From Sneathiella glossodoripedis JCM 23214 (GTDB lineage Bacteria > Pseudomonadota > Alphaproteobacteria > Sneathiellales > Sneathiellaceae): a DNA stretch of 64,000 nt. The position numbers were made by a program, and so were the translations under genes. The stretch spans positions 62,001-126,000 of the forward strand of contig NZ_BAMS01000006.1 in the NCBI RefSeq assembly GCF_000616095.1. The letters are read 5' to 3'. Positions 3,946 to 64,000 of the stretch are shown one piece after another. Position 1 is the stretch's first letter; the number at the start of each line of letters is the position of its first letter. A model generated the notes under the pieces. That model was given only the letters and a program-made list of their open reading frames with translations. It ran no database searches and was not told the origin of the DNA.

Positions 3946-4742
3946 CGCTTGAAGGGTAAGCTTAAGAGCCAGAAAAAAGACTGTTTCAAATTGTCCTGAT
4001 AATTACTAAGTCCAATCGTCATTCCCATATGCCCGTCATCCGGGGTTTCTTTGTAAGTGCGAAAAAGCCGATCCCATATTGAAAGGTTAAAGCCGAAATT
4101 CCGGTGATGCTCCGATGGTTTTACGGAGTGGTGTACCCTGTGCATATCAGGGGTCACGATCAGTTTTCGAACAGACTTGTCAATATTGGCTGGCAATGTG
4201 GCATTCGCATGGTTGAACATTGCCATACTGCTCAGAATGATTTCAAAGAGAATAACAGCAATAACCGGAGGACCAAGAAGAAACACTACGCCTATCTTAA
4301 TGACCATTGAGAAGGCAATTTCCACCGGATGAAAACGGGCCCCGGTCGTAACATCGTAGTCAGGGTCCGCATGGTGCATTTTATGAAATCGCCAAAAGAG
4401 CGGGACGTAGTGAAACAGGACATGTTGAAAATAAATGACCAGGTCCTGAATTATAAGGGCGATCAGAATTTCAAAGGCAATCGGCAGGTTCACCAGATTA
4501 AGGACACCCCAGTTGTTTAATTCGCAGATAGCGGCAAATCCGACGGCCAATACGGGAAACAGAAACCTTAGGATGAATGAGTTAAAGATGGTGACGCCCA
4601 TATTGTGGATCCATCTGAAGGATTTTGATACTCTTAAGCTTCTGCGCGGGGATAGAATTTCCCAAGCAGCAACCGCAACTAATGTGCCGAGGAAAAAAGT
4701 CATTCTCACGATCGGCTCGTGCTGAATAAGAAATTCGATCAT
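3942..4742 (-). CDS. Sterol desaturase / fatty acid hydroxylase family membrane protein
   Basis: A 266-residue integral membrane diiron oxygenase-like protein. The His clusters expected for the metal site are visible: HVLFH, HKMHH, and a C-terminal HRVHHS. Hydrophobic helices flank them (near residues 11-28, 48-70, 85-105, 150-175). Members hydroxylate or desaturate lipids and carotenoids; the substrate here is unknown. The gene is monocistronic on this strand and diverges from the hydrolase gene at 4827. Confidence 0.88.
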   Translation of the reverse strand: MIEFLIQHEPIVRMTFFLGTLVAVAAWEILSPRRSLRVSKSFRWIHNMGVTIFNSFILRFLFPVLAVGFAAICELNNWGVLNLVNLPIAFEILIALIIQDLVIYFQHVLFHYVPLFWRFHKMHHADPDYDVTTGARFHPVEIAFSMVIKIGVVFLLGPPVIAVILFEIILSSMAMFNHANATLPANIDKSVRKLIVTPDMHRVHHSVKPSEHHRNFGFNLSIWDRLFRTYKETPDDGHMGMTIGLSNYQDNLKQSFFWLLSLPFKR

Positions 4743-4826
4743 ATTGCCCTTCTTTGTAAAACATCTGTATTCTACAGATAATTCGCTGAATACTTATTCA
4801 AATCTTCGTTAAGGTATGGAAGTTAT

Positions 4827-5447
4827 ATGACCGACTATCTGCAAAATGGAAATCCGAATGCATCCAGTGTGCTGATCCTTGCGCATGGGGCTGGGGCACC
4901 CATGGATAGCCCGTTTATGGAATATTTTGCGCAAAATCTGGGAGGGGAAAGTCTGCATGTAATCCGCTTTGAATTTCCTTACATGCAAATCCGCCGCAAA
5001 GAGGGAACAAAGCGTCCTCCCGACAGGCAACCGAAATTGCTCGAGCGGTGGAGAGAGGTTATCGCTGACTTTGGCTCCTACAGGAATTTGATAATTGGCG
5101 GGAAATCAATGGGAGGTCGCATGGCATCCCTGATTGCTGATGAAATGCAGGTCAAAGGACTGGTTTGCCTTGGATATCCGTTTTACGCGCCGGGCCGATC
5201 TGACAAACCGCGTACAGAACATCTCGCGCAACTCAGTACTCCCTCGCTAATTGTACAGGGGAAGCGGGACAGTATGGGTAAAAAATCTGACGTTGAACTG
5301 TATGAACTGTCCAATCAGATTTCATTCCACTGGTGCGAAGACGGTGATCACAGTTTTAAGCCCCGAAAAGCATCCGGGTTGACCGAAGAGGAGAACTGGA
5401 AGCTTGCAGTTGCTGCTGTTTCGGAATTTGTGACCTCGATCAGTTAA
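4827..5447 (+). CDS. Tex30/KANL3-type alpha/beta hydrolase
   Basis: A 206-residue alpha/beta hydrolase. The oxyanion-side motif HGAGAPMDSPFM near residue 20 and the nucleophile elbow GGKSMGGR (Ser near residue 92) are characteristic of the dienelactone-hydrolase-like Tex30 family. The expected C-terminal acid/His pair lies in EDGDHSFKP. It is a cytosolic hydrolase of unknown substrate. The gene's last codons meet the end of the truncated dehydrogenase gene on the other strand with a four-base overlap. Confidence 0.83.
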   Translation: MTDYLQNGNPNASSVLILAHGAGAPMDSPFMEYFAQNLGGESLHVIRFEFPYMQIRRKEGTKRPPDRQPKLLERWREVIADFGSYRNLIIGGKSMGGRMASLIADEMQVKGLVCLGYPFYAPGRSDKPRTEHLAQLSTPSLIVQGKRDSMGKKSDVELYELSNQISFHWCEDGDHSFKPRKASGLTEEENWKLAVAAVSEFVTSIS

Positions 5448-5995
5448 TGGCCCAACTCGATTATATGTGATTGTCCTGCCCCAACGTCCCCTGCGTGAGA
5501 AATATCGGAACCAAGACATTGCAGAACGGCAAGAGCCCTTTGATAATCATTTGCCGTGCCACCTGCTGAGATCATAAGCTCACCCTTTCCTGCAGCAAGC
5601 TCATCACCGACAACCGGTGCATCAATCCAGTGCGCGCTTTGCTGACTTACCAGATCTGCGTAGTGGCGTGTGCTGGTGAGGGGAGTTTGGCTTGTATCAA
5701 TGACCAGCGTGTCAGGGCCGATATTTGCCACCAAACCTGCCTCACCCAATAAAATTTCTTCCATGTCCTTGGTGGAGCCCAGCATGAGAAGAATGATGCC
5801 GCCGCTTGTTTTGTGGGCGATTTCTTTGGGGGATACGCATAAGCTTATCCCTTCGCGGGCTAGCTCATATCTGACTGATGGGGAGCCATGATAGGCAAAA
5901 AGATTGGCGCCAGCCTCTTTTATGCGTAGCGCCATATGTTTGCCCATCGGCCCCAAACCAATAAAACCGATATTGGTTCCCTCAAGTGTTCCCAT
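5444..5995 (-). pseudogene. 3-hydroxyisobutyrate dehydrogenase-like protein, C-terminal domain missing
   Basis: The N-terminal Rossmann domain is clear: IGFIGLGPMGKHMA is the NAD(P) motif of the beta-hydroxyacid dehydrogenase family, and DAPVVGDELAAGKG matches the family substrate loop (usually DAPVSGG). The protein stops after GAGQSHIIELGH at 183 residues, whereas family members are about 290 residues. The all-helical C-terminal domain with the catalytic Lys, which follows GAGQ, is absent. No missing base can restore it, because the adjacent DNA encodes the C-terminus of the convergent hydrolase. It is probably a decayed remnant left by a deletion; a short NAD-binding protein is less likely. 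Confidence 0.7.
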
Positions 5996-6084
5996 ATCAT
6001 CCCCCTAATTAGATTTATATTAATTAGGATGATATTATAAAGAAAACGAATTAGCTATTTCAATATTAAGCTTTTGATGTTCTG

Positions 6085-6492
6085 TTACAGGCGGGCATAA
6101 CGTGTTGCTGCGCCACGCTCAATCGCTGCAGCGGTCAGACGATCTACGCCGAGGCCGTGACGCAGGAGCTCCAGAATACGCAGCTCTTCCTGACTGAGTT
6201 GACCATCACATACTGCAACATCACACGCGAGCGCATACGCTGTGTCATACAGTTTTCGTGGAAGAACAGCCTTGATTTTGGAAATGATGGCACTCAATTC
6301 GGAGTTTCCAGCAAACAAATCCATACTGTTGTTGGCGTCTCCGGTTAGGTGGTCCTGATTGTAGTCATCAAAAATAGGGAGGGTTTTGATAATTTCCCCG
6401 ATCGTTTTGAATTCACTGTCGGTCATATTGCCATCTGATGCAGATACCATAACCATGGTCGAAATCAGTGCAGTATGAAGAGTAAGTGACAT
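6085..6492 (-). CDS. TerB-like (tellurite-resistance fold) protein
   Basis: A 135-residue, all-helical cytosolic protein. The repeated acidic motifs ASDGNMTDSEF and VCDGQLSQEELRILE are the metal-site-like signatures of the TerB family. Function in most bacteria is unknown, and no other ter genes are nearby. I choose the ATG at 6492, preceded by GGAGAACACCAGAT, over an upstream ATG at 6540 that would overlap the helicase gene. It lies 44 bases downstream of the DinG-type helicase on the same strand and may be co-transcribed with it. Confidence 0.75.
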   Translation of the reverse strand: MSLTLHTALISTMVMVSASDGNMTDSEFKTIGEIIKTLPIFDDYNQDHLTGDANNSMDLFAGNSELSAIISKIKAVLPRKLYDTAYALACDVAVCDGQLSQEELRILELLRHGLGVDRLTAAAIERGAATRYARL

Positions 6493-6536
6493 ATCTGGTG
6501 TTCTCCGTTTATTTAATTCTCTACAGGATATGTGTA

Positions 6537-9325
6537 TCAAGTTCCATTATCCAATGAATTTTTTCCGCTTTCCTGTTCTTTCTGTGCAATGAAGTTACGT
6601 GTAAGTGCAATTGCATCCTTAATTCCAACCCGTTCAATCGGAACGTCCGGCGGAAAGGCAGACGTCAATCGTGTTGGTAACATGCTGTCAAGCATAACAA
6701 ATACGCCATAATCGCTCTCTTTTCTGAGCAGTCGACCAAATGCCTGTTTTAATTTGAGCCGGGTCAGCATGTCATCATAACGGCTCCCCCCAAATACTTT
6801 TTTACGCGCCTTGTGCTTAAGGTCCGGGCGTGGCCAGGGAACACGATCAAAGATCAACAACCGAAGAGAGCGCCCGGGCACGTCAACGCCATCCCTTACG
6901 GCATCGGTACCTAAGAGAACAGAATTCTCTTCTTCTCTGAAGATGTCGACGAGGGTGCCTGTATCCATCGCATCTTGATGTTGTGCATAAAGGTCGATAC
7001 CATTTTCCGCCAAGGGAGATACGATATGTTTATACACCTCGCGAAGGCGCCAGATTGCGGTGAAAAGACCCAATCCACCGCCTTTTGAAGCCAGAAACAG
7101 CTCCCGATAAGCGCTGGCAACTTCTCGCACGTGATCGCGGCGTACATCTGTCACAACGACTATTCGGGTCTGGCTCCTGAAATCAAATGGAGACGATAGA
7201 TAGGCCCGGCGTGGCGGCAGGATTAAATGACTTGCACCTGTTCGCAAATCTGCATTTTGCCAGTCATCGTCCGCATCCGATTGGTCCCTTAACGTCGCCG
7301 AAGTAATAAGTGCGCCATGTGAGGGTTTTAAGACGACTTCTGAAAATGGTTTGCTAGGGTCGATCCACGCGCGATAATAGCCAAGGTCAACTTCTCTGCC
7401 AGCTTGCTTTTCAATTCCGAGCCAGTCGACATAGATATCAGGTGTCGGCTCGGACAAACCTCTTAAAATTGATTGCCACGGAGCCAGCATCATTGTTGTG
7501 CGGCGCGATAGGCCCTGTACAGCCGCTTCAATTCGCTGCCTTGTAGAGCTTTCCAGATTTTCCGTATCGTCCTCGAGCCGTTTTACGAGAATTTTAGCGA
7601 GCTTCATAAGAGGGGTAACCAGTTCGGAGAGTTTTTTCTCCAGCAGGTGAGCGCTGGTCAGAAGCTCCTCATTGATGTCCTGTGTTGAGCATTCGATGGA
7701 ATAAGAGCTATCTGGTGATCCGCTTCTTGCCTTTACGGTTTGTCTGACCAGCATCAGAAACTGTTCCATTGGCCCTTTGGGCGTTCCAGTCTCTATTCGT
7801 TTCAACCAACCATCAGAGGCAAGAGCGCGGCTGCAATGAAGTGCTTCTTGTAGTGTTTTTTGTCCTTCTTCGTCGTCTCCAATCAAGTCGGAGATGCGTT
7901 TCTCCAAACCACGCATGCGGCCAGATCTTGCTGTTTCACTCCCTGATATCCAACGCCGGAGTTCACTTCCTTCCTGTCCTGTCAGATGGACTGAGAAGGC
8001 ACTGTCAGCCGCATCAAAGAGATGATGCCCCTCATCAAACACATGTCGCTTTGGAAGGTGGGGATCATCGGGGCGTGATGCAGCATTTATCATCATCAAG
8101 GCGTGGTTTGCGACGACCAGCTCTGCCTTTCTTGCTTTTCGAGTGGTCTTTTCAATGAAACATTTCTTATAATGACTGCAAGCGGAATAAATACATTCCC
8201 CGCGCCTGTCTGCGAGCCGCAATATTCTGTTCGCTCCGACAAGTTCCATCAGCCATCCTGGAAAATCACCCCCCAGATCACCATCTCGAGTTGCGCTAAT
8301 CCAGCGTGCTACAATTCCAAGTATGATTTTATCCGTTGCTCGAGCGGCACCGCCTTGCAAAGCTTCTTCATAGTTTAGCAGACAAATGTAGTTCTCTCGC
8401 CCTTTTCGAACCACCGCTTTGGCTTCTTTCTCGGCGGGGTTTGGGTATAGGCTGTTTAATTCTTCATCGATTTGCCGTTGAAGATTTTTAGTGTAGGTCG
8501 AAATCCAGACAGCGGCTCCGTTTTTCTGTGCCCAAAGGCTGGCAGGAGCAATATACCCCAACGTTTTTCCTGTGCCGGTTCCGGCTTCGGCGAGGATTAT
8601 ATTGGGTTTATCTTCCTGATCCCTTGGAATGAATGCACCTGCAGCGGCTGCGGCAAAATCAGATTGCTGAGGTCTTTCTTCTGCATCGATATGGAGTAGT
8701 TCGCGCAATCTATGCCGCGCTTCCTGATCGGTTACAGCCTCATCTTCGGGAGGTGGCGAGGGCGCAAAATCTGGCCAATCCTGCAAATCTTTCCAAATGT
8801 CCATGCCGCCGAAGGGGCCACCAGTGTCTGTTATGCCCAGTGCAGCAAGCACCGAGGGCCCCAATTCCAACCGCTTCTGGACATTGTCATGGCGATTTGA
8901 CTGGCGGATTTCAGCTCAGGCCCGTTCAGATAAGTTAGAGCTTCCAGCAATCTGCTCGCGGCTTCAAATAAGGAAAGTGCCTGGTCTTCCAGTGCTGTGG
9001 GTGGTTCCAAATCCAATGCTTTTGCAATTCCCCGTACGGTAGGCAAGCACTGTCTTGCTGGAAAAGTGAACGCAAATAGTTCTAAAATATCGAAGGCTGA
9101 AAAAGGGTTAATGTCCAGTTTTCGTGCGCAGGCAAGACGATGTGCTAAAAGCGGTGGGGTTTTCGCAACTTTCAGTCGGGCTTGATCAATCGATTCTTCC
9201 ATGATTTCGCCATCAGCGGTGAGCCATACGCTTTTACCACCAGAAAGCACTAGTACTGGCGCTTGTGGGAGACGAATTTCTCTTCCAGAACCTGTTAATT
9301 TTGGATCCAGCGGGTTTTCTGACAT
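6537..9325 (-). CDS. DinG-family ATP-dependent DNA helicase (one frameshift)
   Basis: Superfamily 2 XPD/DinG-type helicase. The N-terminal 160 residues form an alphaproteobacterial extension (FTFPARQCLPTVRGIA). Walker A follows as AGTGTGKTLGY, then the FeS-type region with cysteines in YICLLNYEE and CIYSACSHYKKC. The DEAH-like box reads VFDEGHHLFDA, and the C-terminal motifs include DGVDVPGRSLRLLIFDR and QAFGRLLR. The frame breaks near 8856-8858: the upstream part reads SGWNWGP and the downstream part SVLAALGITDTGG. One extra C on the coding strand joins them into 929 residues, normal for this family. The likely role is unwinding damaged or structured DNA. A TerB gene follows. Confidence 0.87.
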
Positions 9326-9412
9326 ATGCAGAGTTAAAATCCTGTGCCTATCGTTGACGACGTCACTTTGTACGCTTAAATTCCGCCGACCACAAATTAT
9401 GGAGAATGAAAC

Positions 9413-11005
9413 ATGTCATCGGATGCAGAAATCGCATTGTCAAGTAACTCCTGGGCGTTTGCCGAGGCGAAGAAGCTTGTGGATCGCTATGCGAAAGAAG
9501 CACCGTCAAAGGGATATGTGCTGTTTGAAACCGGATATGGTCCGTCAGGTTTGCCGCATCTTGGCACTTTTGGTGAAGTCGCCAGAACATCCTGGGTTCG
9601 TCATGCCTTTTCATTGCTGAGCGATATTCCAACCCGGTTGATTGCGTTTTCTGATGATATGGATGGGCTGAGAAAAGTCCCGGATAATGTCCCTAATCCT
9701 GAATTACTGTCAGCGAACCTGGAAAAACCTCTGACCGAAGTTCCTGATCCCTTTGGTACGCATGACAGTTTTGGGGCGCATAACAATGCGCGGCTTGTTG
9801 CGTTTCTGGATCAGTTTGGTTTTGACTATGAATTCAAGTCGTCAACAGAAGCCTACAAGTCGGGGGAATTTGACGATACTCTGAAGCTGGTTTTGGAAAA
9901 ATATGATCAGGTGATCAATGTTATTCTGCCAACATTGGGCCCTGAGCGTAGAGCTACTTATTCACCGTTCCTGCCGATTTGCCCTCGTACTCGCAAAGTT
10001 CTTCAGGTTCCGATCATTAAAAGGGATATTGAAAACTTTACTGTGACCTATGTTGACCCCGAAACAGATGAAGAAGTTACCGTGCCGGTCACAGGTGGGC
10101 ATTGCAAATTGCAATGGAAAGTGGACTGGGCGATGCGCTGGCATGCGCTTGAGGTCGATTACGAAATGGCGGGTAAGGACTTGATCGATAGTGTGACACT
10201 GTCGAGCAAAATTGTTCGTATTCTTGGGAAGAAGCCACCGGAAGGTTTCAATTACGAGCTGTTCCTTGACGCTGAGGGTAAGAAAATTTCCAAGTCAAAA
10301 GGGAATGGTATCACGATTGAGGAGTGGTTGACTTATGCATCGCCGGAAAGTCTGGCGCTGTATATGTATCAAAATCCTAAGAAAGCGAAACGCTTGCATT
10401 TCGATGTGATCCCAAAAGCGGTTGATGAATATTATACCTTCTTGCAAAAATTTCCGACGCTTGAGCCCAAGCAACAGTTTGGAAATCCGGTCTGGCATCT
10501 GCATGCGGGAAATCCGCCAGCTGCAAATATGCCGATCTCGTTTGGAATGCTATTGAATCTGGCTGCTGTTGTGAACGCAGACGAGGCATCAGTTCTTTGG
10601 GGCTTTATTACGCGCTACGCAGATGGTGCGACTGCAGAAAATAATCCCGAACTGGATCGACTGGTGGGATATGCCATTGCCTACTATCGGGACTTTGTTA
10701 AACCAGCGAAAAAATATCGCCTGCCAAATGACCAGGAAAAAGCAGCCATGTCACAGCTGGTTTCGTTGCTGGGTGAAGCTGATCAGGATACTCCTGCGGG
10801 TGACCTTCAGAATATGGTGTTTCAGGTTGGTAACGATCAAGGATTTGAAAATCTTAGAGACTGGTTTAAAGCATTGTACGAAACGCTTTTGGGCCAATCA
10901 CAAGGACCACGAATGGGTTCATTTATTTCCCTGTATGGGGTTGAAGAAACCATCGCACTGATCGAACGCGTTCTGGCGGGTGAAGATTTGGGTGCTGAAA
11001 AATAA
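9413..11005 (+). CDS. lysK: Class I lysyl-tRNA synthetase
   Basis: A 530-residue archaeal-type (class I) LysRS that charges tRNA-Lys. The HIGH-like signature reads [13 protein letters not shown] (near residues 43-55) and the KMSKS loop reads [10 protein letters not shown] near residue 295. Several alphaproteobacteria carry this class I enzyme instead of class II LysS. The ATG at 9413 is preceded by GGAGAATGAAAC. It is transcribed divergently from the helicase gene and followed by a strong terminator shared with the convergent aminotransferase gene. Confidence 0.95.
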
Positions 11006-12431: not shown

Positions 12432-13498
12432 TGGGCAAACTATATGGTGCGTTTTCCAAGGCATTATTTTGTCTGGATCCTGAGCGAGCTCATAATTTTT
12501 CACTGGCAGCATTAAAGTCAGGTTTCATGCCTTTAAAGGACGCTGAAATTGATCCGGTTCTTCAATCTAATGTCTTTAATCTCGATTTTCCAAATCCGGT
12601 AGGGTTATCAGCCGGATATGATAAAAACGGTGCGGTCTTGGATGCCCTTTTGGGGTTGGGGTTTGGCTTTGTTGAAGCGGGCAGTATTACCCCACTTCCA
12701 CAAGAGGGAAATCCCAGACCCAGGATTTTCAGGCTGACAGAAGATGAGGCGGTCATAAATCGTCTTGGCTTTAACAATAAAGGTCTGGAAGTTGCTGCGA
12801 GCAATTTCAAAGCTCCCCGCAGAGCGGGAGTGGTTGGTGCAAATCTTGGTGCGAACAAAGATAGTGACGATCGCATTGCGGATTATGTTTTGGGCCTGAA
12901 AACTTTGGCACCTTACGCCAGCTATGTGACTGTGAATATTTCCTCACCCAATACTCCGGGCTTGCGCGCGTTGCAAGGCAAGGGGGAATTGGAAGAGTTG
13001 CTGGGACGTTTGATGCAGGCTCGCAGCCAGTTGCCCGATGAAAATGACAGAAGAAAAGCCATTTTGCTCAAAATCGCGCCGGACCTTACAGCCGAGGATA
13101 AAAAGGACATTGCTGAAGTCGCGCTGGCGATGAAGCTTGATGGGCTTATTGCCACGAATACGACGATTACACGGCCAGATACATTGACCTCAACCCAAAA
13201 AGGAGAGACTGGTGGGTTGAGCGGTGCACCTCTTAAAGCATTGTCGGAGAGAGTGGTCAAAGATATGTATCAGCTAACCGGTGGTGAGATACCAATCATT
13301 GGCGTTGGAGGCATTGCGTCAGCGGAAGATGCCTACTCTCGGATAAGAGCGGGTGCATCACTGGTGCAGCTTTATTCAGCAATGGTTTATCACGGACCAT
13401 TTCTCGCGCACAAAATAGCGTTGGGTCTTGCAGGCTTATTAAAGGCCGATGGCTATAAATCAGTGTCTGAAGCTGTTGGTGTCGACGCTGGTAGTTAA
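12431..13498 (+). CDS. pyrD: Dihydroorotate dehydrogenase (quinone), class 2
   Basis: FMN enzyme that oxidises dihydroorotate to orotate in pyrimidine synthesis, passing electrons to membrane quinone. The class 2 N-terminal amphipathic helix (LYGAFSKALFCLDPERAHNF) marks membrane association. The core shows NPVGLSAGYDKNG, EAGSITPLPQEGN, NRLGFNNKG, VNISSPNTPGLR (with the class 2 catalytic Ser) and IIGVGGIASAEDA. The 355-residue length is typical. The start is ATG 12431, overlapping the DUF952 stop. The 3' end overlaps the stop of the convergent regulator gene. Confidence 0.96.
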   Translation: MGKLYGAFSKALFCLDPERAHNFSLAALKSGFMPLKDAEIDPVLQSNVFNLDFPNPVGLSAGYDKNGAVLDALLGLGFGFVEAGSITPLPQEGNPRPRIFRLTEDEAVINRLGFNNKGLEVAASNFKAPRRAGVVGANLGANKDSDDRIADYVLGLKTLAPYASYVTVNISSPNTPGLRALQGKGELEELLGRLMQARSQLPDENDRRKAILLKIAPDLTAEDKKDIAEVALAMKLDGLIATNTTITRPDTLTSTQKGETGGLSGAPLKALSERVVKDMYQLTGGEIPIIGVGGIASAEDAYSRIRAGASLVQLYSAMVYHGPFLAHKIALGLAGLLKADGYKSVSEAVGVDAGS

Positions 13499-14042
13499 AA
13501 ACTGGGTGGTGTACAGGCGCTTACGACAACTGCCTCCTCATCACCGATACATCTAAAACGATGCGGTTTGTGGCTTTCGAAATAAAAGGCATCTCCAGCT
13601 TTCAAGACTTTACGCTCGGCACCTACAGTGACTTCAAGCTTGCCTTTAACGATGACGCCAGCTTCTTCCCCTTGATGGATAGCATGTTGCGGCCTGTATC
13701 AGCGCCAGGTTTATAGGTCTCATGAAGGACCTGCAGACCTTTTCCGGTCAAGTCACGTCCCACCTGTTTATATTCAATTTTACCTTCGGAAATTCTGGCA
13801 AGTTCGTCTTCGCTAAAGAATATCTTGCGCCGCGATGAAAAATCATGCGCAAAGAAATCAGACATGGCGATGGGAAATCCGTCCAGCACTTTTTTGAGTG
13901 AACCGACAGACGGGCTAGTTCGGTTTTGTTCAATCATCGATATGGTGCCATTTGTAACTCCGGCGCGGGCCGCGAGTTCCCGTTGGGAGTATCCATGTTC
14001 CAGACGCAGTGCCCGGAGCCTTTTACCAATGTCAAATTCCAT
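13495..14042 (-). CDS. XRE-cupin transcriptional regulator, PuuR-like (one frameshift)
   Basis: An N-terminal helix-turn-helix (GKRLRALRLEHGYSQRELAA, residues about 5-60) is joined to a C-terminal cupin domain. This is the architecture of PuuR and related regulators of polyamine and amino-acid catabolism. The frame shifts at about 13677: the upstream part ends GADTGRNMLS and the downstream part continues HQGEEAGVIVKGKLEVTV to the cupin end CTPPSF. One added C gives 182 residues, the normal length. The ATG at 14042 fits the HTH start; an upstream in-frame ATG at 14108 is unlikely. It is divergent from the omega-aminotransferase/ald pair and is its probable regulator. Confidence 0.85.
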
Positions 14043-14199
14043 TCTTTCAATCCTGATTCTGACGGAACTGTTTAGAATTTTAAACATAAAAATCAAAATT
14101 GAAACCACGAAAGCGCGGAAAACAAGGATTCAATTTTTCACTTGTCGGATTTAATGAACCCGCTAACGTGCGAATTAATAGTCTAACGGGAGTTAATCG

Positions 14200-43617: not shown

Positions 43618-44823
43618 CTAAGCGCCTTCACGCCCAACAATGGTTAGTGAGCAGACATTTTGATGAGGGAAGCCGCCAAGATTATGTGTCATTCCAAACA
43701 CTGGGTCGTCCTCCCGTTGGCGTTCACCCGCTCGGCCGCTCAATTGAAGATACATTTCATAGATCATACGAATGCCTGATGCACCGATTGGATGCCCAAA
43801 ACATTTCAATCCACCATCAATTTGGCAGGGGATCTTGCCGTCAGCATCATAGAAACCGTCCATAATATCGTTTACAGCACGTCCTTCCGAAGAAATGAAA
43901 AGATCCTCCATCGTCACCAGTTCGGTAATTGAGAAGCAATCATGCACTTCAAACATACTGATTTGCTCGCGTGGGTTTGTGATGCCTGCTTCCTGATAGG
44001 CGCGTTTGGCTGCCGCGCGTGTCGTTACGAAGTGACTGCCATCCCAGGAATTATGTTGTGCTTCGCGTCCATTTGAAGCGGATAGTTGCATTGCTTTTAC
44101 CGTCACCAGGTCTTTTTTACCCAGTGATTTAGCAATCTCGGGGGTTGTGACAATTGCAACAGCGGAACCATCGCTTACACCGCAGCAGTCAAAAAGCCCA
44201 AGAGGTTCAGCAATCATCGGCGCATTCATAACTTTGTCTTCGTCGATTTTGTTACGCAGATGGGCTTTAGGGTTTTTTGAACCGTTTTCATGGCTTTTGA
44301 CCGATACATGTGCCATCGCACGTTTCAAGTCTTTTGCGTTGATTTTATGCTTGGCCGCATATGCAGAAGCAAGTTGCGCAAAAGAACCTGGTGCCGATGC
44401 ATTGGCCCAGAATAAATCATTTACTGCACCACGACTTCGCTGTGGAAGCCCGCCATATCCTGTGTCTTTAAGTTTTTCTACGCCAACTGCCATCGCAATG
44501 TCAGCCGCACCTGATGCGACAGCATAGACCGCTCCGCGCAGTGCTTCTGATCCACTGGCACAGTAGTTTTCGACGCGAGTAACTGGAATATTGGGCAGAC
44601 GCAGAGCCATCGAGAGAGGAACGGCTGATTTTCCAACATGTTGTTCTTCGATGCCAGTGCCGAACCACGCTGCATCGATTTGACTTTTATCTATTCCTGC
44701 ATCTTCAATTGCTTCTACGAAGGCTTCGACAATCAAGTCCTCAGCATTGTCATTCCATCTCTCGCCAAAGCGTGAGCAACCCATCCCCAAAATTGCAACT
44801 TTATCTTTAATTCCTGTAGCCAT
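43618..44823 (-). CDS. Thiolase, SCP-x/acetyl-CoA acetyltransferase type
   Basis: A 401-residue thiolase-fold enzyme. The acyl-accepting Cys lies in ENYCASGSEALRGAV (near residue 90) and catalytic His residues in EVHDCFS and FGHPIGASG. The C-terminal region reads NLGGFPHQNVCSL where biosynthetic thiolases have a C-x-G motif, so it belongs to the lipid-transfer/SCP-x branch that often works with a DUF35 protein. It starts at the ATG at 44823, two bases after the stop of the HMGCS-like/DUF35 gene. The two are almost certainly a complex or pathway pair acting on acyl-CoA. Confidence 0.9.
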   Translation of the reverse strand: MATGIKDKVAILGMGCSRFGERWNDNAEDLIVEAFVEAIEDAGIDKSQIDAAWFGTGIEEQHVGKSAVPLSMALRLPNIPVTRVENYCASGSEALRGAVYAVASGAADIAMAVGVEKLKDTGYGGLPQRSRGAVNDLFWANASAPGSFAQLASAYAAKHKINAKDLKRAMAHVSVKSHENGSKNPKAHLRNKIDEDKVMNAPMIAEPLGLFDCCGVSDGSAVAIVTTPEIAKSLGKKDLVTVKAMQLSASNGREAQHNSWDGSHFVTTRAAAKRAYQEAGITNPREQISMFEVHDCFSITELVTMEDLFISSEGRAVNDIMDGFYDADGKIPCQIDGGLKCFGHPIGASGIRMIYEMYLQLSGRAGERQREDDPVFGMTHNLGGFPHQNVCSLTIVGREGA

Positions 44824-44825
44824 TT

Positions 44826-46291
44826 TTATTCTCCTGCATTTGTGTCCACAGGGACAGCTTTCCAAAAGTAGCGCCGAAACCCGCGTTTATTGTCGTAATC
44901 TTTAACTCTGAACACCATGCGCATTTTCATGCCAACAGTGAGTTCGTCGTCGGGGAAAATGTCAGTAAAATCATTCATTAGACGCCCACCACCTTCGAAC
45001 TGGATCATGCCATAATAGGCTGGCGGATCTGGCGAGAAAGTCAAGCGGTCTGCGGTATAGGAATTAAGAGTTGCCGTTTTTTCCGCGAAGGGGTGATCTT
45101 TCTGGGTGTCAATTGCGCCGCAGTTTTCATTCACGCAAATGTTGCTTTTTGGAAACTGTATTGTGCCGCAGTTGCTGCATTCACCACCGACCATCCGCTG
45201 GGCCATAAATCTGTTGCGATAATGGGTTGTAAGGCCAGTATTTTTGTCGACTTCTGCGCGGATGCCCAGATCCATTTCAATGCCTTCATTAAAAGCAAGG
45301 AAACGATTGTAATTTGTCACTTTCCGACCTTTAGCGAGGGAGGCGCTAACACCAGCTTGACCGCTGAATTCATTAATTACCTCTGTCACTTCGAACAAAA
45401 GTGCGTCACTGCCTTGCCCAAAACTGGCGACGAGAATTTTGTCCCCTGCTTTGGCTGTTTCAAGGGCATGGGCAAGCATGATTAAGGACTGTGCGCTGCC
45501 AGCTTCCCCCATGTTCGATTGTAGTTGTCGGCAACTGCATCAGGGGAGATGCCAACTTTTTTTGCAAGACCTGTTGCAACATTTCTGGCGGCTACTGGGA
45601 AGCAAAAAGTTGTGATTTCTTCTGCTTTCAGATTGGCTTTAGCAAGCGCGCCTTCGATCGCGGTTGGCACAATTTTCATGTAGCCTTCATCGCGAATCCA
45701 GCGCTCTTCCCAAGTGTAGTCGTACTGTTCCTCTTCGCCGCGGAAATGGTCCACAAAATCGACACTTTCCGTGTGGCTGCCGATCAAGCGGGCAATTATG
45801 TTCCCCGAACCAATTAAAAATGCGGCGGCCCCATCACCGGTTGTCATCTCGAGCGCGCTGCCAGCTTTCGTTTTTCGTTTTTCCGCAGCGCAGAGGAGTA
45901 TCGGTCCATTGTTTGCCCCTGCAGCCTGCAAGGCGACACTCAAGCCAGATGTGCCAGCGCGCATGGAAGAAGAAAAATCAAGCGTTTGAACTGAGCTTCT
46001 CAAATTCAAGGCATCCGCCACAATTGCCGCATTTTGTCGATCCAGAAAGGGAAAGGTTGTTGATGCCATATAGACACCTGAAATGGTGTCTCTGTCCATC
46101 GACTGAAGACAGCCACGAGCCGCCTCTACTGACATAGTTACGCTATCTTCGTCCCAATTTGCCATTGACCTTTCACCGCGTGCTAAGCCTTTTAGCCCGG
46201 GGTTAAACCATGCGTGCGCTTTGAAAATTTCTTCGCGCTGCAATCTGCTTTTGGGAATATATCCGCCATAAGCAAGAATTCCGACTTCCAC
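44826..46291 (-). CDS. HMG-CoA-synthase-like domain fused to DUF35 OB-fold protein (one frameshift)
   Basis: One gene broken near 45518. The N-terminal part has the KASIII/HMG-CoA-synthase fold (GILAYGGYIPKSRLQREEIF, EMTTGDGAAAFLIGSGNIIA) and ends VADNYN. The downstream frame continues MGEAGSAQSLIMLAHALE and VASFGQGSDALLFEVTE, then a zinc-ribbon (CSNCGTIQFPKSNICVNENC) and an OB-fold typical of DUF35. Adding one T joins them into 488 residues. Where archaeal HMG-CoA synthases have the nucleophilic Cys (ACKAGT), this protein reads SMRAGT, so the standard nucleophile is missing. It probably assembles with the thiolase. Reaction unknown. Confidence 0.85.
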
Positions 46292-46538: not shown

Positions 46539-47021
46539 ATGGATTATACTGATCATCGGGCCGGATTTGTGTTTGCGGATATTGCGCGGTTCAGAGTTCG
46601 TCTGTTTGATCGGCTACTGGCGCCGCATGGACTTACTACTTCTCAGGCTTGGGTCTTGGCTCATTTGTTTATCGAAGACAATTTACCGCAGACCGAATTG
46701 GCCAGGCGCATGGATGTTGGCGCGGTGACAATTGGCGGGTTGATTGAGCGGCTGGAAGCTCGTGGTTTTGTGGAACGAAAAGTTGACTCAGAAGACAGGC
46801 GGGTGAAAAGAGTTCTGCTGAAAGAAGAAGCAAAAAGTATCGGACGCATCATGGCGGAATGTGGACGCACCTTAAATGAAGTTGCTTTTTCAGGAATGGA
46901 AGCTGAAAAGGCTAAAGCTGTAATGGATGGTTTGCTGTCCGTTCGGCAAAATTTATTAGATGCTCTGGCTGAAGACACAGATATCAAGAGTGCGACAGAT
47001 ATTTTGCTGAGCAAAAAATAG
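46539..47021 (+). CDS. MarR family transcriptional regulator (divergent from HMGCS/thiolase)
   Basis: A 160-residue winged-helix regulator. The recognition region reads QTELARRMDVGAVTIGGLIE, followed by the wing RLEARGFVERKVDSEDRRVK, the typical MarR DxRxxRV wing. It is transcribed away from the HMGCS-like/DUF35 and thiolase genes with 247 bases between, so it probably controls that operon in response to an acyl-CoA or acid. Its stop lies two bases before the convergent stop of a second MarR gene. Confidence 0.93.
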   Translation: MDYTDHRAGFVFADIARFRVRLFDRLLAPHGLTTSQAWVLAHLFIEDNLPQTELARRMDVGAVTIGGLIERLEARGFVERKVDSEDRRVKRVLLKEEAKSIGRIMAECGRTLNEVAFSGMEAEKAKAVMDGLLSVRQNLLDALAEDTDIKSATDILLSKK

Positions 47022-47023
47022 AA

Positions 47024-47479
47024 TTACTGTTTGTTTTTGTCCATCATATGCATGCTCTCTCCCAGTTTGTTGAGATAATGGGCGAAAGAAATTCGGTCAT
47101 CCGGGGAAAAATTTCGCAACGCTTCGTCATAAAACTTGTTAATTAAAGGGGTGATATTGCCCCAGAGTTCGTGACCTTTTTCACTCAAACAAATATACCG
47201 CTTGCGCTGATCCTGATCATCGACGGTACGGGAAATCAATCCGCGCTCCTCAAGCCGCTTGAGTACGCCGGTCAGGTTTTGCCGGCTCAAGCGTAAATAT
47301 TCGCACAGTTCTGAGACGGTCATACCTTTTTGGACGCTGGTTCGGGACAAAGCTCCAAGGATTGACCATTGCTGTGTTGTTATCTGTTCCGACTCAAGTG
47401 CCTGTGCACCAACTTTTTGTAGGGTGTTGGCGGTTTGGTAAAGTCGAAAAAACAACCTATTGCTTAATTCATCTATCAT
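47024..47479 (-). CDS. MarR family transcriptional regulator (divergent from the aliB-badHI operon)
   Basis: A 151-residue MarR protein with TVSELCEYLRLSRQNLTGVL (recognition helix) and RLEERGLISRTVDDQDQRKR (wing). It is divergent from the aliB-badH-badI operon. In Rhodopseudomonas palustris a MarR protein (BadR) controls the homologous genes and responds to 2-ketocyclohexane-1-carboxyl-CoA. This gene is positioned to do the same, but orthology to BadR is not proven. Confidence 0.92.
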   Translation of the reverse strand: MIDELSNRLFFRLYQTANTLQKVGAQALESEQITTQQWSILGALSRTSVQKGMTVSELCEYLRLSRQNLTGVLKRLEERGLISRTVDDQDQRKRYICLSEKGHELWGNITPLINKFYDEALRNFSPDDRISFAHYLNKLGESMHMMDKNKQ

Positions 47480-47527: not shown

Positions 47528-47576
47528 CATAAATTCGTAATTGCGAAATGCTGAAAAAAAGTATGGGAGAGGGTTT

Positions 47577-48722
47577 ATGCATTTCGCAATGAACGAAGAA
47601 CAGCAATTAATTGTGGATGCTGCAAAGCAGTTTGCAGATCAAAAACTTGCGCCAGGCTACCAGCAAAGAGATCGTGAAGGGGTATTTGATCGGCGCCTGA
47701 CAGAACAGATGGGCGAATTGGGCTTTGTCGCGCCAGAGCAATCCGTTGAGTTCGGGGGGAGTGGGATATCCTATCTTACCAGTGGTATGGTGATGGAGGC
47801 GATCGCATCAGCGGATTTCAACATGGCCTATGTGCAGTTGCTTGCTTCGCTGAATACACAAATCTTGGCAAGATATGCAGTTCCGGAACTCGCGAAACAT
47901 TGGATTCCTCAAATTTGCAGTGGGAATATTATTTTAGGTGTTGCTCTTACTGAGCCCGGTGGTGGTTCGGATGCCGCAAACCTACAGCTTCGAGCAGAAA
48001 AAACTGAAGGAGGTTATCTCCTTGTCGGTGAAAAGGCATCTATTTCAATGTCTGATCAGGCAGATTTAATGATTGTCTTTGCACGTACCGGTGCCAAAGA
48101 TAGCCGGGCAAGGGGAGTGAGTGCGTTTCTGGTCGAAATGGATAGCCCCAACATTACTACTTCGCGATATGATGATCTGGGGCAGCGATGTGTTGGCAGA
48201 GGGTCCATTTATTTTGATAAGGTCTTTGTGCCGGAGAAAAATCGGCTGGGTAGTGAAAATCGAGCTTTTTCCCAAGTGATGGAGGGCTTTGATTTCAGTC
48301 GGGCTCTTATCGGGTTACAGTGCCTTGCAGTTGCCGAACAGTCTTTGGGCGAAGCCTGGAAGTATAGTCAGGAACGCGAAGCATTTGGCAAGCCAATAAG
48401 TGTCAATCAGGGTGTCGTTTTTCCCCTTGCCGAAGCTCAAACTCAGTTAGAGGCTGCAAAATTACTTTGTTACAAGACACTTTGGCTAAAGGATCAGGGG
48501 AAGCCACATACAGCAGAAGCTGCCATGTGCAAATGGTGGCCCCCCAAACTGGCGTTTGAAATTATCCATCAATGTTTGTTGACACATGGCCATGGTGGCT
48601 ACGCGCGAGATTACCCGTTTGAACAGAGATTGAGAGATGTTCTCGGTCTGCAAATCGGGGATGGAACTGCGCAAATAATGAAAATGATAATCGCAAGAGA
48701 AAAGTTGGGAGAGTATCAATGA
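47577..48722 (+). CDS. Acyl-CoA dehydrogenase, likely cyclohexanecarboxyl-CoA dehydrogenase
   Basis: A 381-residue FAD acyl-CoA dehydrogenase heading the cyclohexanecarboxylate operon, in the role of AliB (cyclohexane-1-carboxyl-CoA to cyclohex-1-ene-1-carboxyl-CoA). Motifs are LGVALTEPGGGSDAANLQLR, QEREAFGKPISVNQGV and GHGGYARDYPFEQRLRD. The position of the usual catalytic Glu reads IGDGTAQI, so an Asp stands in for Glu, and helix G has SRALIG with no Glu. An Asp base would suit a ring substrate, by inference. I choose the ATG at 47577, with GGGAGAGG just upstream. It overlaps badH by four bases. Confidence 0.88.
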   Translation: MHFAMNEEQQLIVDAAKQFADQKLAPGYQQRDREGVFDRRLTEQMGELGFVAPEQSVEFGGSGISYLTSGMVMEAIASADFNMAYVQLLASLNTQILARYAVPELAKHWIPQICSGNIILGVALTEPGGGSDAANLQLRAEKTEGGYLLVGEKASISMSDQADLMIVFARTGAKDSRARGVSAFLVEMDSPNITTSRYDDLGQRCVGRGSIYFDKVFVPEKNRLGSENRAFSQVMEGFDFSRALIGLQCLAVAEQSLGEAWKYSQEREAFGKPISVNQGVVFPLAEAQTQLEAAKLLCYKTLWLKDQGKPHTAEAAMCKWWPPKLAFEIIHQCLLTHGHGGYARDYPFEQRLRDVLGLQIGDGTAQIMKMIIAREKLGEYQ

Positions 48723-49476
48723 AAGGGCTCAAGGGCAAAAATGCAATCGTGACTGGTGCTGGAGGCGGACTTGGAACTGCAATATCACAACGCCTGGCGG
48801 AAGCGGGATGTTCTGTTGGCATTTTCGATTTAAATGCAGAAGCGGCTCGATCAACTGCTCGGTCAATTGGGGAAAAGGCTTCCGCTCATACAGTCGATAT
48901 ATCCGATCTTGATGCAGTCAAAAAAGCGGTAGCAGAATTTGAGGAAAAAGTCGGCCCAGTAGATATTCTGGTGAATAATGCAGGTTGGGACAAGGTCGGA
49001 AATTTTCTGGAAACAGACAAAGCGCTGTGGGAGAAAATTGTCGCTATTAATCTTTGGGGACCGCTGCATGTCACCCATACGGTTGCGCAAGGTATGACCG
49101 CGCGCGGAAAAGGCAAAATCATCACAATTGCATCTGATGCTGCTCGCGTCGGCTCAAGCGGCGAGGGGGTCTATTCCGCATGTAAGGGCGGAATGGTTGC
49201 TTTTTCAAAAACGCTTGCCCGTGAACTGGCACGCAAGAATATCAATGTGAATGTTGTTTGCCCGGGGCCCTCTGATACACCGATCTTAAATGACTTTGTT
49301 GGTGAAGGAGAGGTCGGGCAGAAAATATATGAAGGTCTAAAACGAGCGATCCCGTTCAAGCGCCTTGGTCAACCCGAGGATTTTGGAGGCATCGTCGCGT
49401 TTTTGGCGAGTGACGAGGCAGATTACATTACAGGCAGGTAATAAGTGTCTCTGGTGGTTTAACAATGGCGGGATAA
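48719..49476 (+). CDS. badH: 2-hydroxycyclohexanecarboxyl-CoA dehydrogenase (SDR), one frameshift
   Basis: Short-chain dehydrogenase oxidising 2-hydroxycyclohexane-1-carboxyl-CoA to the 2-keto form with NAD. The NAD motif is TGAGGGLGTAIS, the active-site Ser/Tyr/Lys lie in ASDAARVGSSGEGVYSACKG, and VCPGPSDTPILND follows. The whole protein closely resembles R. palustris BadH. The frame breaks at 49435, after YITG. One added C continues QVISVSGGLTMAG and a stop at 49474-49476, giving 252 residues, the normal C-terminus. badI follows 14 bases later. Confidence 0.9.
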
Positions 49477-49490
49477 GAAAGGAAAATAAC

Positions 49491-50272
49491 ATGTCATACG
49501 AAGATATTTTATACGAAGAAAGAAACGGGGCGGCATGGATAACAATAAACCGCCCAGAAGTTTACAATGCGTTTCGAGGGCAGACCGTTGAAGAAATGAT
49601 TCATGCAATGAACGAGGCTGCATGGAATAAGGAAATTGGTGTAATTGTTCTTGCCGGTGCAGGTGATAAAGCTTTTTGCACGGGGGGCGATCAATCTGCG
49701 CATGATGGCCAATATGATGGCCGTGGTATTATCGGTCTTCCTATTGATGAGTTGCAAAGTCTCATTCGTGATGTTCCCAAACCTATTATTGCGCGCGTGC
49801 AGGGGTTTGCGATTGGTGGTGGAAATGTGCTGGCAACGTTATGTGATTTTACGATTGCTTCTGAAAAAGCCCAGTTTGGACAAGTAGGGCCAAAAGTAGG
49901 TCCGTGGATCCAGGGTTTGGTACTGCTTATCTAGCCCGAATAGTGGGGGAGAAAAAAGCTCGGGAAATGTGGTATTTGTGCCGTCGCTATAGCGCGAGCG
50001 AAGCTGAGCGTATGGGGTTGGTAAATAAAGTTGTGTCGCATGAAGAGCTGGATGCCGAGGTGGAGCGCTGGTGTTCTGAGATAATGGAGAAAAGCCCCAC
50101 AGCGATTTCCATCGCAAAGAAATCCTTTAATCTGGATTCAGAAAATATTCGGGCTATTTCCTCTATGGGTATGCAGGCTTTAAGTCTGTATTACGATACA
50201 GATGAATCGCGAGAGGGAGTCGCTGCATTTAACGAAAAGCGAAAACCGGATTTCAGAAAATTCACCAAATAG
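49491..50272 (+). CDS. badI: 2-ketocyclohexanecarboxyl-CoA hydrolase, one frameshift
   Basis: Crotonase-fold enzyme that hydrolytically opens the ring of 2-ketocyclohexane-1-carboxyl-CoA to pimelyl-CoA. It is recognised from its close match to BadI: INRPEVYNAFRGQTVEEMIH, AFCTGGDQSAHDGQYDGRG, VQGFAIGGGNVLATLCDFTI, AREMWYLCRRYS and YYDTDESREGV. The frame breaks at about 49901 within KVG(S)VDPGFGTAYLAR. One added T gives 260 residues, the same length as BadI. It closes the aliB-badHI operon. The ligase (AliA) and the hydratase (BadK) needed for the full pathway are not adjacent. Confidence 0.93.
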
Positions 50273-61589: not shown

Positions 61590-64000
61590 TTAAAGCGCGC
61601 CATGGCAGTGCTTGTACTTTCTGCCAGATCCACAAGGGCAGGGATCATTTCGGCGAACCTTGCCCCAGTTTTCCCCTGAAGGTGCACTCTCTACTTCATT
61701 TTCACCCGTTACAGGATCTATGTGAGTTGCCTGAAGCTCCTCTTCGTTGGGCTCCTCTCGTTGAATTACCGTTTCGGGGTTTTGTAATTCAACATGACTG
61801 AGGTAGCTGGTGACGCTGACATGAAGTTGGTCCAGCATGGCTTGGAACATATTGAACGCTTCAGTTTTGTATTCGTTAAGAGGGTCTTTTTGCGCATAAG
61901 CGCGTAAAGAAACCGATTGTCGCAAATGGTCCAGTTGCAACAAATGCTCTTTCCAGGTCTGATCCAAAATTTGCAGGAGCAGGCTTTTTTCCACCATGCG
62001 CATGACGTCAGGGCCATATTTGGCAGCTTTTTCAGCCATCTTGCGATTAATATTATCGTTAAGACGATCTCGAATTTCTTCGTCTGCAATGCCTTCTTCC
62101 GCAGCCCATTCGGATATGGGAAGATCGAGCCCGAGAACTTCTCTAACCTCTTCAGTCAGCCCGTTGATATCCCATTGTTCAGGGTAGGCCTTTTCGGGGA
62201 TATGGCGGGAAACCATCTGGTCAATCACATCTGCGCGCATATCCTTGATGGTTTCAGAAACGTCGCTCTGGTTCATCAAATCAATACGTTGCTCATAGAT
62301 GACCTTGCGCTGGTCATTCATTACATCATCAAACTTAAGCAAGTTCTTGCGGATGTCGTAGTTTCTGGCTTCCACTTTTTGCTGGGCTTTTTCAAGCGCT
62401 TTGTTGATCCAGGGGTGAATAATTGCCTCACCATCTTCCAGCCCAAGCTTACGTAGCATACCATCCATTCGTTCGGAACCAAATATCCGCATCAGATCGT
62501 CCTGCAAGGACAGATAGAAACGGCTGGTGCCGGGATCGCCCTGACGCCCAGAGCGTCCGCGAAGTTGGTTATCGATGCGGCGTGACTCGTGACGCTCGGT
62601 GCCGATGACGAATAGTCCGCCTGCTTCGAGTACTTTTTTCTTCTGCTCCGCTGTATCCGCTTCGATTTCCGCATTAATGCGGGAAATCTCCGCTTCGTCA
62701 GTTAACCCACGAGTTCGTTCAGCAATCATCATTTCGGTATTGCCGCCCAGTTTGATGTCAGTTCCGCGTCCTGCCATATTTGTCGCGATCGTCACAGCTC
62801 CGATGCGGCCCGCTTGCGCGATGATTTCAGCTTCCTGTTCATGATATCTGGCATTAAGGACACTGTGTTTGATTTTTTTCTTTTTCAGAATTTCAGATAA
62901 CATTTCCGATTTTTCAATCGAAACTGTTCCCACCAGCACCGGCTGTCCCCTCTGTTGGCATTCATCAATGGTTTTAACAATAGCAGCATACTTTTCTTCT
63001 GCTGTTCGATATATCTCATCATCAACGTCCTGCCGCTGGACAGGAACATTGGTTGGAATTTCGACAACCTGCAGTCCATAAATTTCTGCAAATTCTTCTG
63101 CTTCAGTCGCAGCCGTACCGGTCATACCCGATAGTTTGTCGTATAATCGGAAGTAATTTTGAAAAGTGATAGAGGCCAATGTCTGGTTTTCCGGTTGGAT
63201 GGCAACATTTTCTTTTGCCTCCAGAGCCTGATGCAGGCCATCGGAATAACGCCGTCCGTCCATCATCGGCCGGTAAATTCATCAATAATAACAACCTTGT
63301 TGTCTTTGACGATGTAGTCTTTGTCGCGTGTGAAGAGTTTATGTGCTCTTAAAGCCTGATTGGCATGATGAACTGCGGCCACGTTTTCAACATCATACAG
63401 ATTGTCACCTTTTAATAATCCTGCTTCATCCAGCAGTTTTTCAATGGTTTCAGTTCCCTCTTCGGTGAAGCTGACAGACTTGGCTTTTTCATCGACTTCG
63501 TAATCAGTTTCAGACAGTTTAGGGATGATTTCATTTACTGCGCGGTATAACTCGGAGCTATCTTCAGCTGGCCCGGATATGATCAATGGGGTTCGGGCTT
63601 CGTCAATCAGGATGCTGTCTACTTCGTCCACCACAGCAAAGTTGAAGCCACGTTGAACCATGGATTCCGCTTCAAATTTCATGTTGTCGCGAAGGTAATC
63701 AAACCCAAACTCGTTGTTTGTTCCGTAGGTAATGTCACATGCGTAAGCCGCGCGACGTTCCTGCTCTTCAATACCGCTGGCAATACATCCGACGGTCATG
63801 CCGAGTCTGTGATACACTTTCGACATCCATTCACTATCTCGTTGAGCGAGATAATCATTTACGGTGACAACATGGACGCCTTTACCATCAAGAGCATTCA
63901 GATACGCCGCCAGAGTCGATACCAGCGTTTTACCTTCACCGGTTTTCATTTCGGTGATTTTGCCTTGATGTAGCACAATGCCGCCCATTAACTGAACGTC
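61590..64000 (-). CDS. secA: Protein translocase ATPase SecA (5' end outside window, one frameshift)
   Basis: The motor of the Sec translocase, cut off at the right edge with only the first stretch missing. Visible are [13 protein letters not shown] with Walker [10 protein letters not shown], the DEAD-like [18 protein letters not shown], the cross-linking and helicase motif region [29 protein letters not shown], and the C-terminal zinc-binding tail [16 protein letters not shown]. The frame breaks at about 63267, between DEFTGR and [10 protein letters not shown]. One missing base after CG is enough. As SecA is essential, a sequencing error is far more likely than a real mutation. Confidence 0.96.

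Follow-up and report, generated by a model that had tools for sequence, protein, structure and literature searches.

A fused subunit, composed of a 3-hydroxy-3-methylglutaryl-CoA (HMG-CoA) synthase (HMGCS)-like domain and a DUF35 domain, and the SCP2-type thiolase encoded directly behind it in Sneathiella glossodoripedis JCM 23214 appear to form a catabolic 3-oxoacyl-CoA thiolase, in which the HMGCS-DUF35 part would be a dead scaffold and the substrates would be methyl-branched or alicyclic acyl-CoAs. We give this reading a probability of about 0.6. The genes lie on 64,000 nucleotides of contig NZ_BAMS01000006.1 (positions 62,001 to 126,000), the whole stretch analyzed here and called the window, whose own numbering is used below; the abbreviations are FUS for the fused subunit and THL for the thiolase. 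Sequence shows the fusion, the pairing of the two genes, the loss and retention of residues, the predicted fold, and the genomic linkage, which together point to a physical complex, a role for its cavity, a thiolytic direction, and a substrate class. Relatives were drawn from a named-genome set, the best 80 of 576 matches in public genomes and the basis of all counts out of 80, and from a same-genus set of 23 genomes. Sneathiella species are among the best matches of the former, and in the FUS tree the window groups with them. Greedy picking of open reading frames (ORFs) missed genes on high-GC contigs (58/80 fusions, 45/54 thiolases), and tblastn was used instead.

Fused HMGCS-like/DUF35 subunit

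Three ORFs on the minus strand are confirmed in the window, and the first two make up FUS. Its N-terminal piece (45482 to 46291) carries an HMGCS-like domain with the KAS III fold, matching NF003274 (8.1e-43), 6esq_I (4.5e-25), and PhlA-type chains, and starts with a GTG codon preceded by a GGAGG ribosome site. The remainder (44826 to 45512) holds, according to domain searches, the end of the HMGCS-like fold and DUF35. The latter (44907 to 45200) is a zinc ribbon (PF12172, 4.9e-05) followed by an OB fold (PF01796, 1.2e-09), both above cut-off, and its four zinc cysteines are retained in 80, 78, 78, and 78 of the 80 relatives, giving the Cys4 zinc ribbon and OB fold of ChsH2-type DUF35 proteins. 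Only two nucleotides separate the FUS stop from the ATG of THL (TAA-AA-ATG), confirming the claim of an earlier note on this DNA that an HMGCS/DUF35 fusion lies two bases before a thiolase gene; in the relatives the fusion is intact, as one open frame in 79 of the 80 loci.

The motif DFSSSMRAGT of FUS aligns with DLEFACKAGT of the archaeal HMGCS 6esq_I, which puts a Met codon (45962 to 45964 on the minus strand, a coordinate based on the GTG start) where the catalytic Cys would be encoded. This Cys is numbered Cys114 in PMC6392133. Across the 80 loci the column holds Gln in 70, Leu in 7, and Met, Arg, and Ser in one each, with Cys in none, and the loss of the nucleophile proposed earlier is borne out by the alignment. 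In another count, over 30 loci, the residues are Gln (21), Met (6, including the window), Arg (1), and Leu (1), with one row not covering the position; Met is thus a variant of six same-genus loci, and Gln is the commonest residue in the family. Profile alignment with 6esq_I further shows Thr in the catalytic Glu column of 78/80 relatives and Pro in 80/80 at the His of VFHQP, which we take to be the catalytic His of HMGCS, while the column aligned with an Asn of 6esq_I is Glu or Asp in 79/80. FUS therefore has the HMGCS/KAS III fold without the catalytic Cys, Glu, and His of an HMG-CoA synthase, and the archaeal HMGCS model NF003274 gives its two pieces 147 and 46.5 bits, below the cut-off of 244. 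With replacements at each of the three catalytic positions, the HMGCS domain is, judging from the alignments, a pseudo-enzyme, and this is a property of the family and no local accident. For the same reason, the different condensation once suggested for this domain is unsupported, and use of the HMGCS fold only as a scaffold, another suggestion of the earlier note, gains support.

AlphaFold2, run on the intact relative L032 with an alignment of 31 more sequences, gives a model with a pLDDT of 86.9 and a pTM of 0.90. Its best solved match is 6esq_I (Z, 45.7; 1.9 A over 334 residues), with which Foldseek agrees, followed by PhlA-type chains (Z, 43 to 44) and MucA (Z, 41). Residue 110, at the Cys place, sits in a turn between the strand 102-106 and the helix 112-126, and such a turn between strand and helix is the nucleophile site of the HMGCS/KAS III fold. 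The structure of FabH C112Q is also among the matches. In ketosynthases with a Cys-to-Gln exchange, Gln mimics the acylated nucleophile, and by analogy the Gln of this family may do so as well. KSQ domains with Gln at the Cys position are decarboxylases, and the presence of Gln in 70/80 relatives raises the question of whether the HMGCS-like domain could be active in a similar way, decarboxylating malonyl units. We consider this very improbable: the His and Asn that aid decarboxylation in KAS III are replaced by Pro (80/80) and Glu/Asp (79/80) in the columns of 6esq_I, and Gln is not fixed, since Leu, Met, Arg, and Ser occur in its place.

The FUS frame is broken in this assembly by a one-base deletion near 45524 (approximate place, 45524 to 45527), as seen from a tblastn comparison with the intact same-genus relative L118, which yields two pieces that differ in frame. 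Of the 23 same-genus genomes, 21 have FUS uninterrupted in a single open frame; in one of the remaining two it is split over two contigs (G012), and the other gives no match (G008). Single-base losses relative to L118 also hit the badH and badI genes of the window, and a DinG-like helicase gene (6543 to 9328) and secA (61593 to 64000) are split over two frames in comparison with a same-genus relative. A frame scan against the relative finds 5 of 50 listed rows in two frames, badH being outside those five; the row 13498 to 14189 contains stops and is hence discounted, and row 17685 has no usable piece. Since the frame continues in relatives and other window genes, secA among them, are broken as well, the FUS break is probably a sequence error and the gene intact in nature. 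A broken secA would hardly be compatible with life if it were the sole copy, which makes sequence error the likely cause and suggests that the window assembly carries many indel errors. A programmed frameshift or a true pseudogene is not favored: the lesion is a one-base deletion that is missing from the same-genus relatives, no slippery heptamer was seen at the break on inspection by eye, and badH, badI, the DinG-like gene, and secA are broken too.

Thiolase partner and related complexes

THL (43618 to 44823, minus strand) matches NCBIfam NF004810/PRK06157 with 694 bits (cut-off, 403) as well as the solved chains 7yvy and 6esq_A, and its NYCAS, HDCF, and GHP motifs are intact. A thiolase lies directly 3' of FUS in 71 of the 75 loci that have at least 600 nt downstream. 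Four loci are counted without an adjacent thiolase (L065, L067, L085, and L089), and two of these, L065 and L085, have a thiolase match downstream, beyond the distance window used. Among 73 loci with a thiolase match, 70 partners are long enough to score, and all 70 keep N-x-C, HDCF, and GHP, in agreement with the earlier observation that the thiolase retains its Cys. The nucleophilic Cys, HDCF, and GHP, the last of which is presumably a signature of SCP2-type thiolases, place THL in this group.

Retention of these motifs bears on the direction of the reaction, for which a retro-aldol or retro-Claisen step had been suggested. DUF35/thiolase-fold complexes such as Sal/Shy and Ltp2/ChsH2 are retro-aldolases that cut 3-hydroxyacyl-CoA side chains, and by likeness of parts FUS-THL might do the same on a steroid-like substrate; in PMC12329534, HDCF is the SCP-2 thiolase motif, whereas the aldolases Sal and Ltp2 carry YDCY and YDHF. 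Because THL keeps HDCF, together with its nucleophilic Cys, in 70/70 partners, a retro-aldol step is most unlikely. In addition, the 3-hydroxyacyl-CoA dehydrogenase gene found in 25/80 loci would yield a 3-oxo substrate. Of the two suggested steps, thiolytic retro-Claisen cleavage by THL is the one favored.

We propose that FUS and THL are two subunits of a single beta-oxidation thiolase complex. Cys88 of THL would be acylated by a 3-oxoacyl-CoA and then transfer this group to CoA, with HDCF and GHP acting as in SCP2-type thiolases. FUS, in the manner of the archaeal complex and of PhlABC, would scaffold the thiolase dimers and help shape a shared CoA/acyl cavity, which would let bulky, methyl-branched (isoprenoid) or alicyclic 3-oxoacyl-CoAs be cleaved.

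The same three parts, thiolase, HMGCS, and DUF35, constitute the archaeal complex 6ESQ, and the kinship drawn in the earlier note holds, with 6esq_I as the solved structure nearest to the HMGCS domain and 6esq_A as a related thiolase (200 bits to THL). In contrast to that complex, HMGCS and DUF35 form one chain here, other residues stand in place of the catalytic Cys, Glu, and His, so that an active, HMG-CoA-making HMGCS part is missing, and the genes often lie near beta-oxidation genes. The combination of an inactive HMGCS-like part, DUF35, and a catalytic thiolase-fold part is instead shared, apart from the fusion of two of them, with the Friedel-Crafts acylase PhlABC of Pseudomonas protegens (5M3K/5MG5) and with CsATase (9SKH). 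Loss of the Cys is not new in itself: according to PMC6392133, the HMGCS Cys and Glu are missing from PhlA too, only residues of PhlC act in acyl transfer, and the whole complex is required for activity. An earlier paper, PMC2954200, likewise notes an inactive PhlA and DUF35 fused to members of the thiolase superfamily. Unlike FUS, PhlA and PhlB are separate chains, Gly stands at the Cys place of PhlA where this family mostly has Gln, PhlABC serves antibiotic synthesis, and PhlC is distant from THL (67 to 72 bits). MucABC of Streptococcus macacae (9VBO/9VBT), an acyltransferase known from structure titles, resembles FUS in its HMGCS-like fold (Z, 41) and differs by separate chains.

These likenesses raise the alternative that FUS-THL is itself a PhlABC/MucABC-type acyltransferase, which C-acylates phenols or tetramic acids. 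The folds are the same, the HMGCS-like partner of PhlABC is inactive too, and the top structural hits of FUS include MucA as well as PhlA-type chains. Even so, we regard it as quite unlikely, since THL retains thiolase motifs and is far closer to 6esq_A than to PhlC, and acyl-CoA genes make up most of the 20 neighbor clusters annotated out of ~130, among which there is no polyketide synthase. A catabolic function of a related assembly is known from the benzoylsuccinyl-CoA thiolase BbsAB (7PXP), a thiolase with a zinc-finger subunit that matches THL with 154 bits. BbsAB is not known to have an HMGCS-like domain.

Gene neighborhood and substrate class

ORF clustering of the 80 loci finds acyl-CoA dehydrogenases, acyl-CoA synthetases, enoyl-CoA hydratases, and MarR regulators as common neighbors; the annotated clusters were picked by frequency, some partly by interest. 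The link to acyl-CoA catabolism made in the earlier note is supported. In a search by gene, tblastn detects an MFE-2-type dehydrogenase in 25 loci, a hydratase-2 in 21, and an alpha-methylacyl-CoA racemase in 12, and most loci are without them. Six of the 12 racemase genes lie no more than 50 nt upstream of FUS. Background rates, from copies counted in 14 genomes (~58 Mb) and expressed per 20 kb, are ~0.9% for the dehydrogenase (26 copies) and ~0.65% for the racemase (19 copies), and linkage of FUS-THL with MFE-2-type dehydrogenase/hydratase and racemase genes exceeds background. A second sample of 397 genomes of the phylum yields 12 further places, two of which were already in the first set (L138 = L095 and L139 = L087); among the ten new ones the thiolase is adjacent in 8, and the dehydrogenase, hydratase, and racemase occur in 3, 3, and 1, respectively.

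The identities of these neighbors are taken from their best solved relatives. The racemase scores 380 bits to MCR of Mycobacterium tuberculosis and 108 to 109 to formyl-CoA transferases, the dehydrogenase 352 bits to the (3R)-hydroxyacyl-CoA dehydrogenase 2et6, and the hydratase 197 bits to the MFE-2 structure 1s9c. An assignment of the CoA-transferase family III neighbor as formyl-CoA transferase was rejected, its NCBIfam match being weak (135 bits; cut-off, 442) and the solved structures favoring racemase.

Linkage of racemase, hydratase-2, and (3R)-dehydrogenase points to methyl-branched, isoprenoid-type substrates. By family, 2-methylacyl-CoA racemase, hydratase-2, (3R)-dehydrogenase, and SCP2-type thiolase are the enzymes of the peroxisomal racemase/MFE-2/SCPx beta-oxidation. 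In peroxisomes, as stated in PMC7106852, straight-chain thiolases are inactive on 2-methyl-branched substrates, and SCPx performs the thiolysis of pristanic acid breakdown. A more specific version of our reading, which we offer tentatively, is that FUS-THL belongs to a bacterial counterpart of this route, in which the pseudo-HMGCS (mostly with Gln) and DUF35 would be a cavity-forming subunit that sets the range of the thiolase for 2-methyl-branched isoprenoid 3-oxoacyl-CoAs. It would differ from the peroxisomal route in being bacterial, in its separate genes and HMGCS-DUF35 partner, and, as the neighbors suggest, in a first step by acyl-CoA dehydrogenase, not oxidase.

A plainer explanation is that THL is a thiolase for acetoacetyl-CoA or for short- or medium-chain straight substrates, that the scaffold has no effect on substrate choice, and that the branched-chain linkage reflects general clustering of acyl-CoA genes. 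The mixed neighbors (acyl-CoA synthetases, dehydrogenases, and enoyl-CoA hydratases, with housekeeping genes in some lineages) and the NCBIfam name of THL, "acetyl-CoA acetyltransferase," would fit. On the phylogeny of FUS, a quick tree with no bootstrap of which only starred clades were used, one clade of 28 rows (SH-aLRT, 97) contains the same-genus FUS proteins along with 11 of the 13 loci linked to a racemase, a concentration that also suits this explanation. It is unlikely in view of a racemase, named for 2-methylacyl-CoA, in 12/80 loci against its low background, and of the good conservation of FUS (mean column identity of 66% over 32 rows).

Several observations weigh against a branched-chain scaffolded thiolase. 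The racemase-linked loci, being concentrated in one clade, are non-independent, and the six with racemase directly upstream all fall in a single 10-row clade inside it; raw counts of changes in the neighbor labels on the tree are 14 for the dehydrogenase and 6 for the racemase. No racemase is found in 68/80 loci and no dehydrogenase in 55/80, many contigs being short, and some lineages have non-acyl-CoA neighbors, such as galU and UDP-glucose dehydrogenase. In the genome of the window these genes are not near FUS-THL; that it has them elsewhere, with a single strong racemase match (54% identity) and a single dehydrogenase/hydratase pair (66 and 65%), speaks for our reading. The SCPx parallel covers the pathway only, FUS being no SCP2 lipid-transfer domain. 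Finally, residue 268 of the window FUS is Gln where 79/80 relatives hold His, and this copy may be drifting.

For the lineage of the window itself, an alicyclic acid is an equal candidate as substrate. A ring-cleavage gene set of the aliB/badH/badI type lies on the plus strand (47541 to 50272), identified with NCBIfam models: a cyclohexanecarboxyl-CoA dehydrogenase gene (47541 to 48722; TIGR03207, 580 bits, above cut-off), a badH-like gene frame-broken near its end (48719 to 49441; TIGR03206 best), and a frame-broken badI-like gene (~49479 to 50272; TIGR03210 best), the last two below cut-off on the broken pieces. The cyclohexanecarboxyl-CoA genes adjoin FUS-THL in the same order in L031 and L118 as in the window. 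Two MarR-type regulators stand between: a divergent one found by domain search (46539 to 47021, plus strand), which likely controls FUS-THL, and a second identified by domain and NCBIfam searches (47024 to 47479, minus strand), beside the ring-cleavage operon. A MarR gene is detected in 15 of the 80 loci. Genes of ring-cleavage clusters also occur near FUS in L094.

In four Sneathiella loci (L032, L036, L037, and L039), a divergent carboxylase operon adjoins FUS (~3200 to 9800 in the numbering of these loci). The carboxyltransferase of L032 scores 578 bits to the geranyl-CoA carboxylase beta subunit versus 467 to methylcrotonyl-CoA carboxylase among solved structures, and for the biotin carboxylase of L036 no single type of acyl-CoA carboxylase stands out. 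Terpenoid-acid catabolism is a possible function of this operon. A TIGR03084 protein and an old yellow enzyme (OYE)-type reductase, as tested on L036, accompany the carboxylase genes.

FUS relatives also occur on contigs of metagenome-assembled genomes (MAGs) labeled Vicinamibacterales, Acidobacteria, Rokuibacteriota, Kuenenia, and Desulfosarcina (L053, L057, L076, L081, and L104), representing either a wider spread or binning errors. In the FUS tree L081 is almost identical to L083, from a Rhizobium-labeled MAG.

Implications for the family

An inactive HMGCS partner is already known, and the variant described here is a family in which the partner is fused and mostly carries Gln and the thiolase looks catabolic. 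What is new is the fused subunit as a family property and its above-background linkage to a set of branched-chain beta-oxidation enzymes; no characterization of the fused family was recognized among the titles and abstract starts of open-license PMC literature. The proposal gives a definite role, open to experimental test, to a family with at least hundreds of matching stretches in public genomes, whose members are scored best by the generic models for HMG-CoA synthase and acetyl-CoA acetyltransferase. An HMG-CoA-synthase label in such genomes need not imply a mevalonate route. If the proposal is true, a channeling complex would have turned catabolic through the killing of one active site and the fusion of two of its parts, and many Proteobacteria would gain an assigned thiolase with which to degrade branched or alicyclic acids or isoprenoid ones of the pristane or phytol kind.

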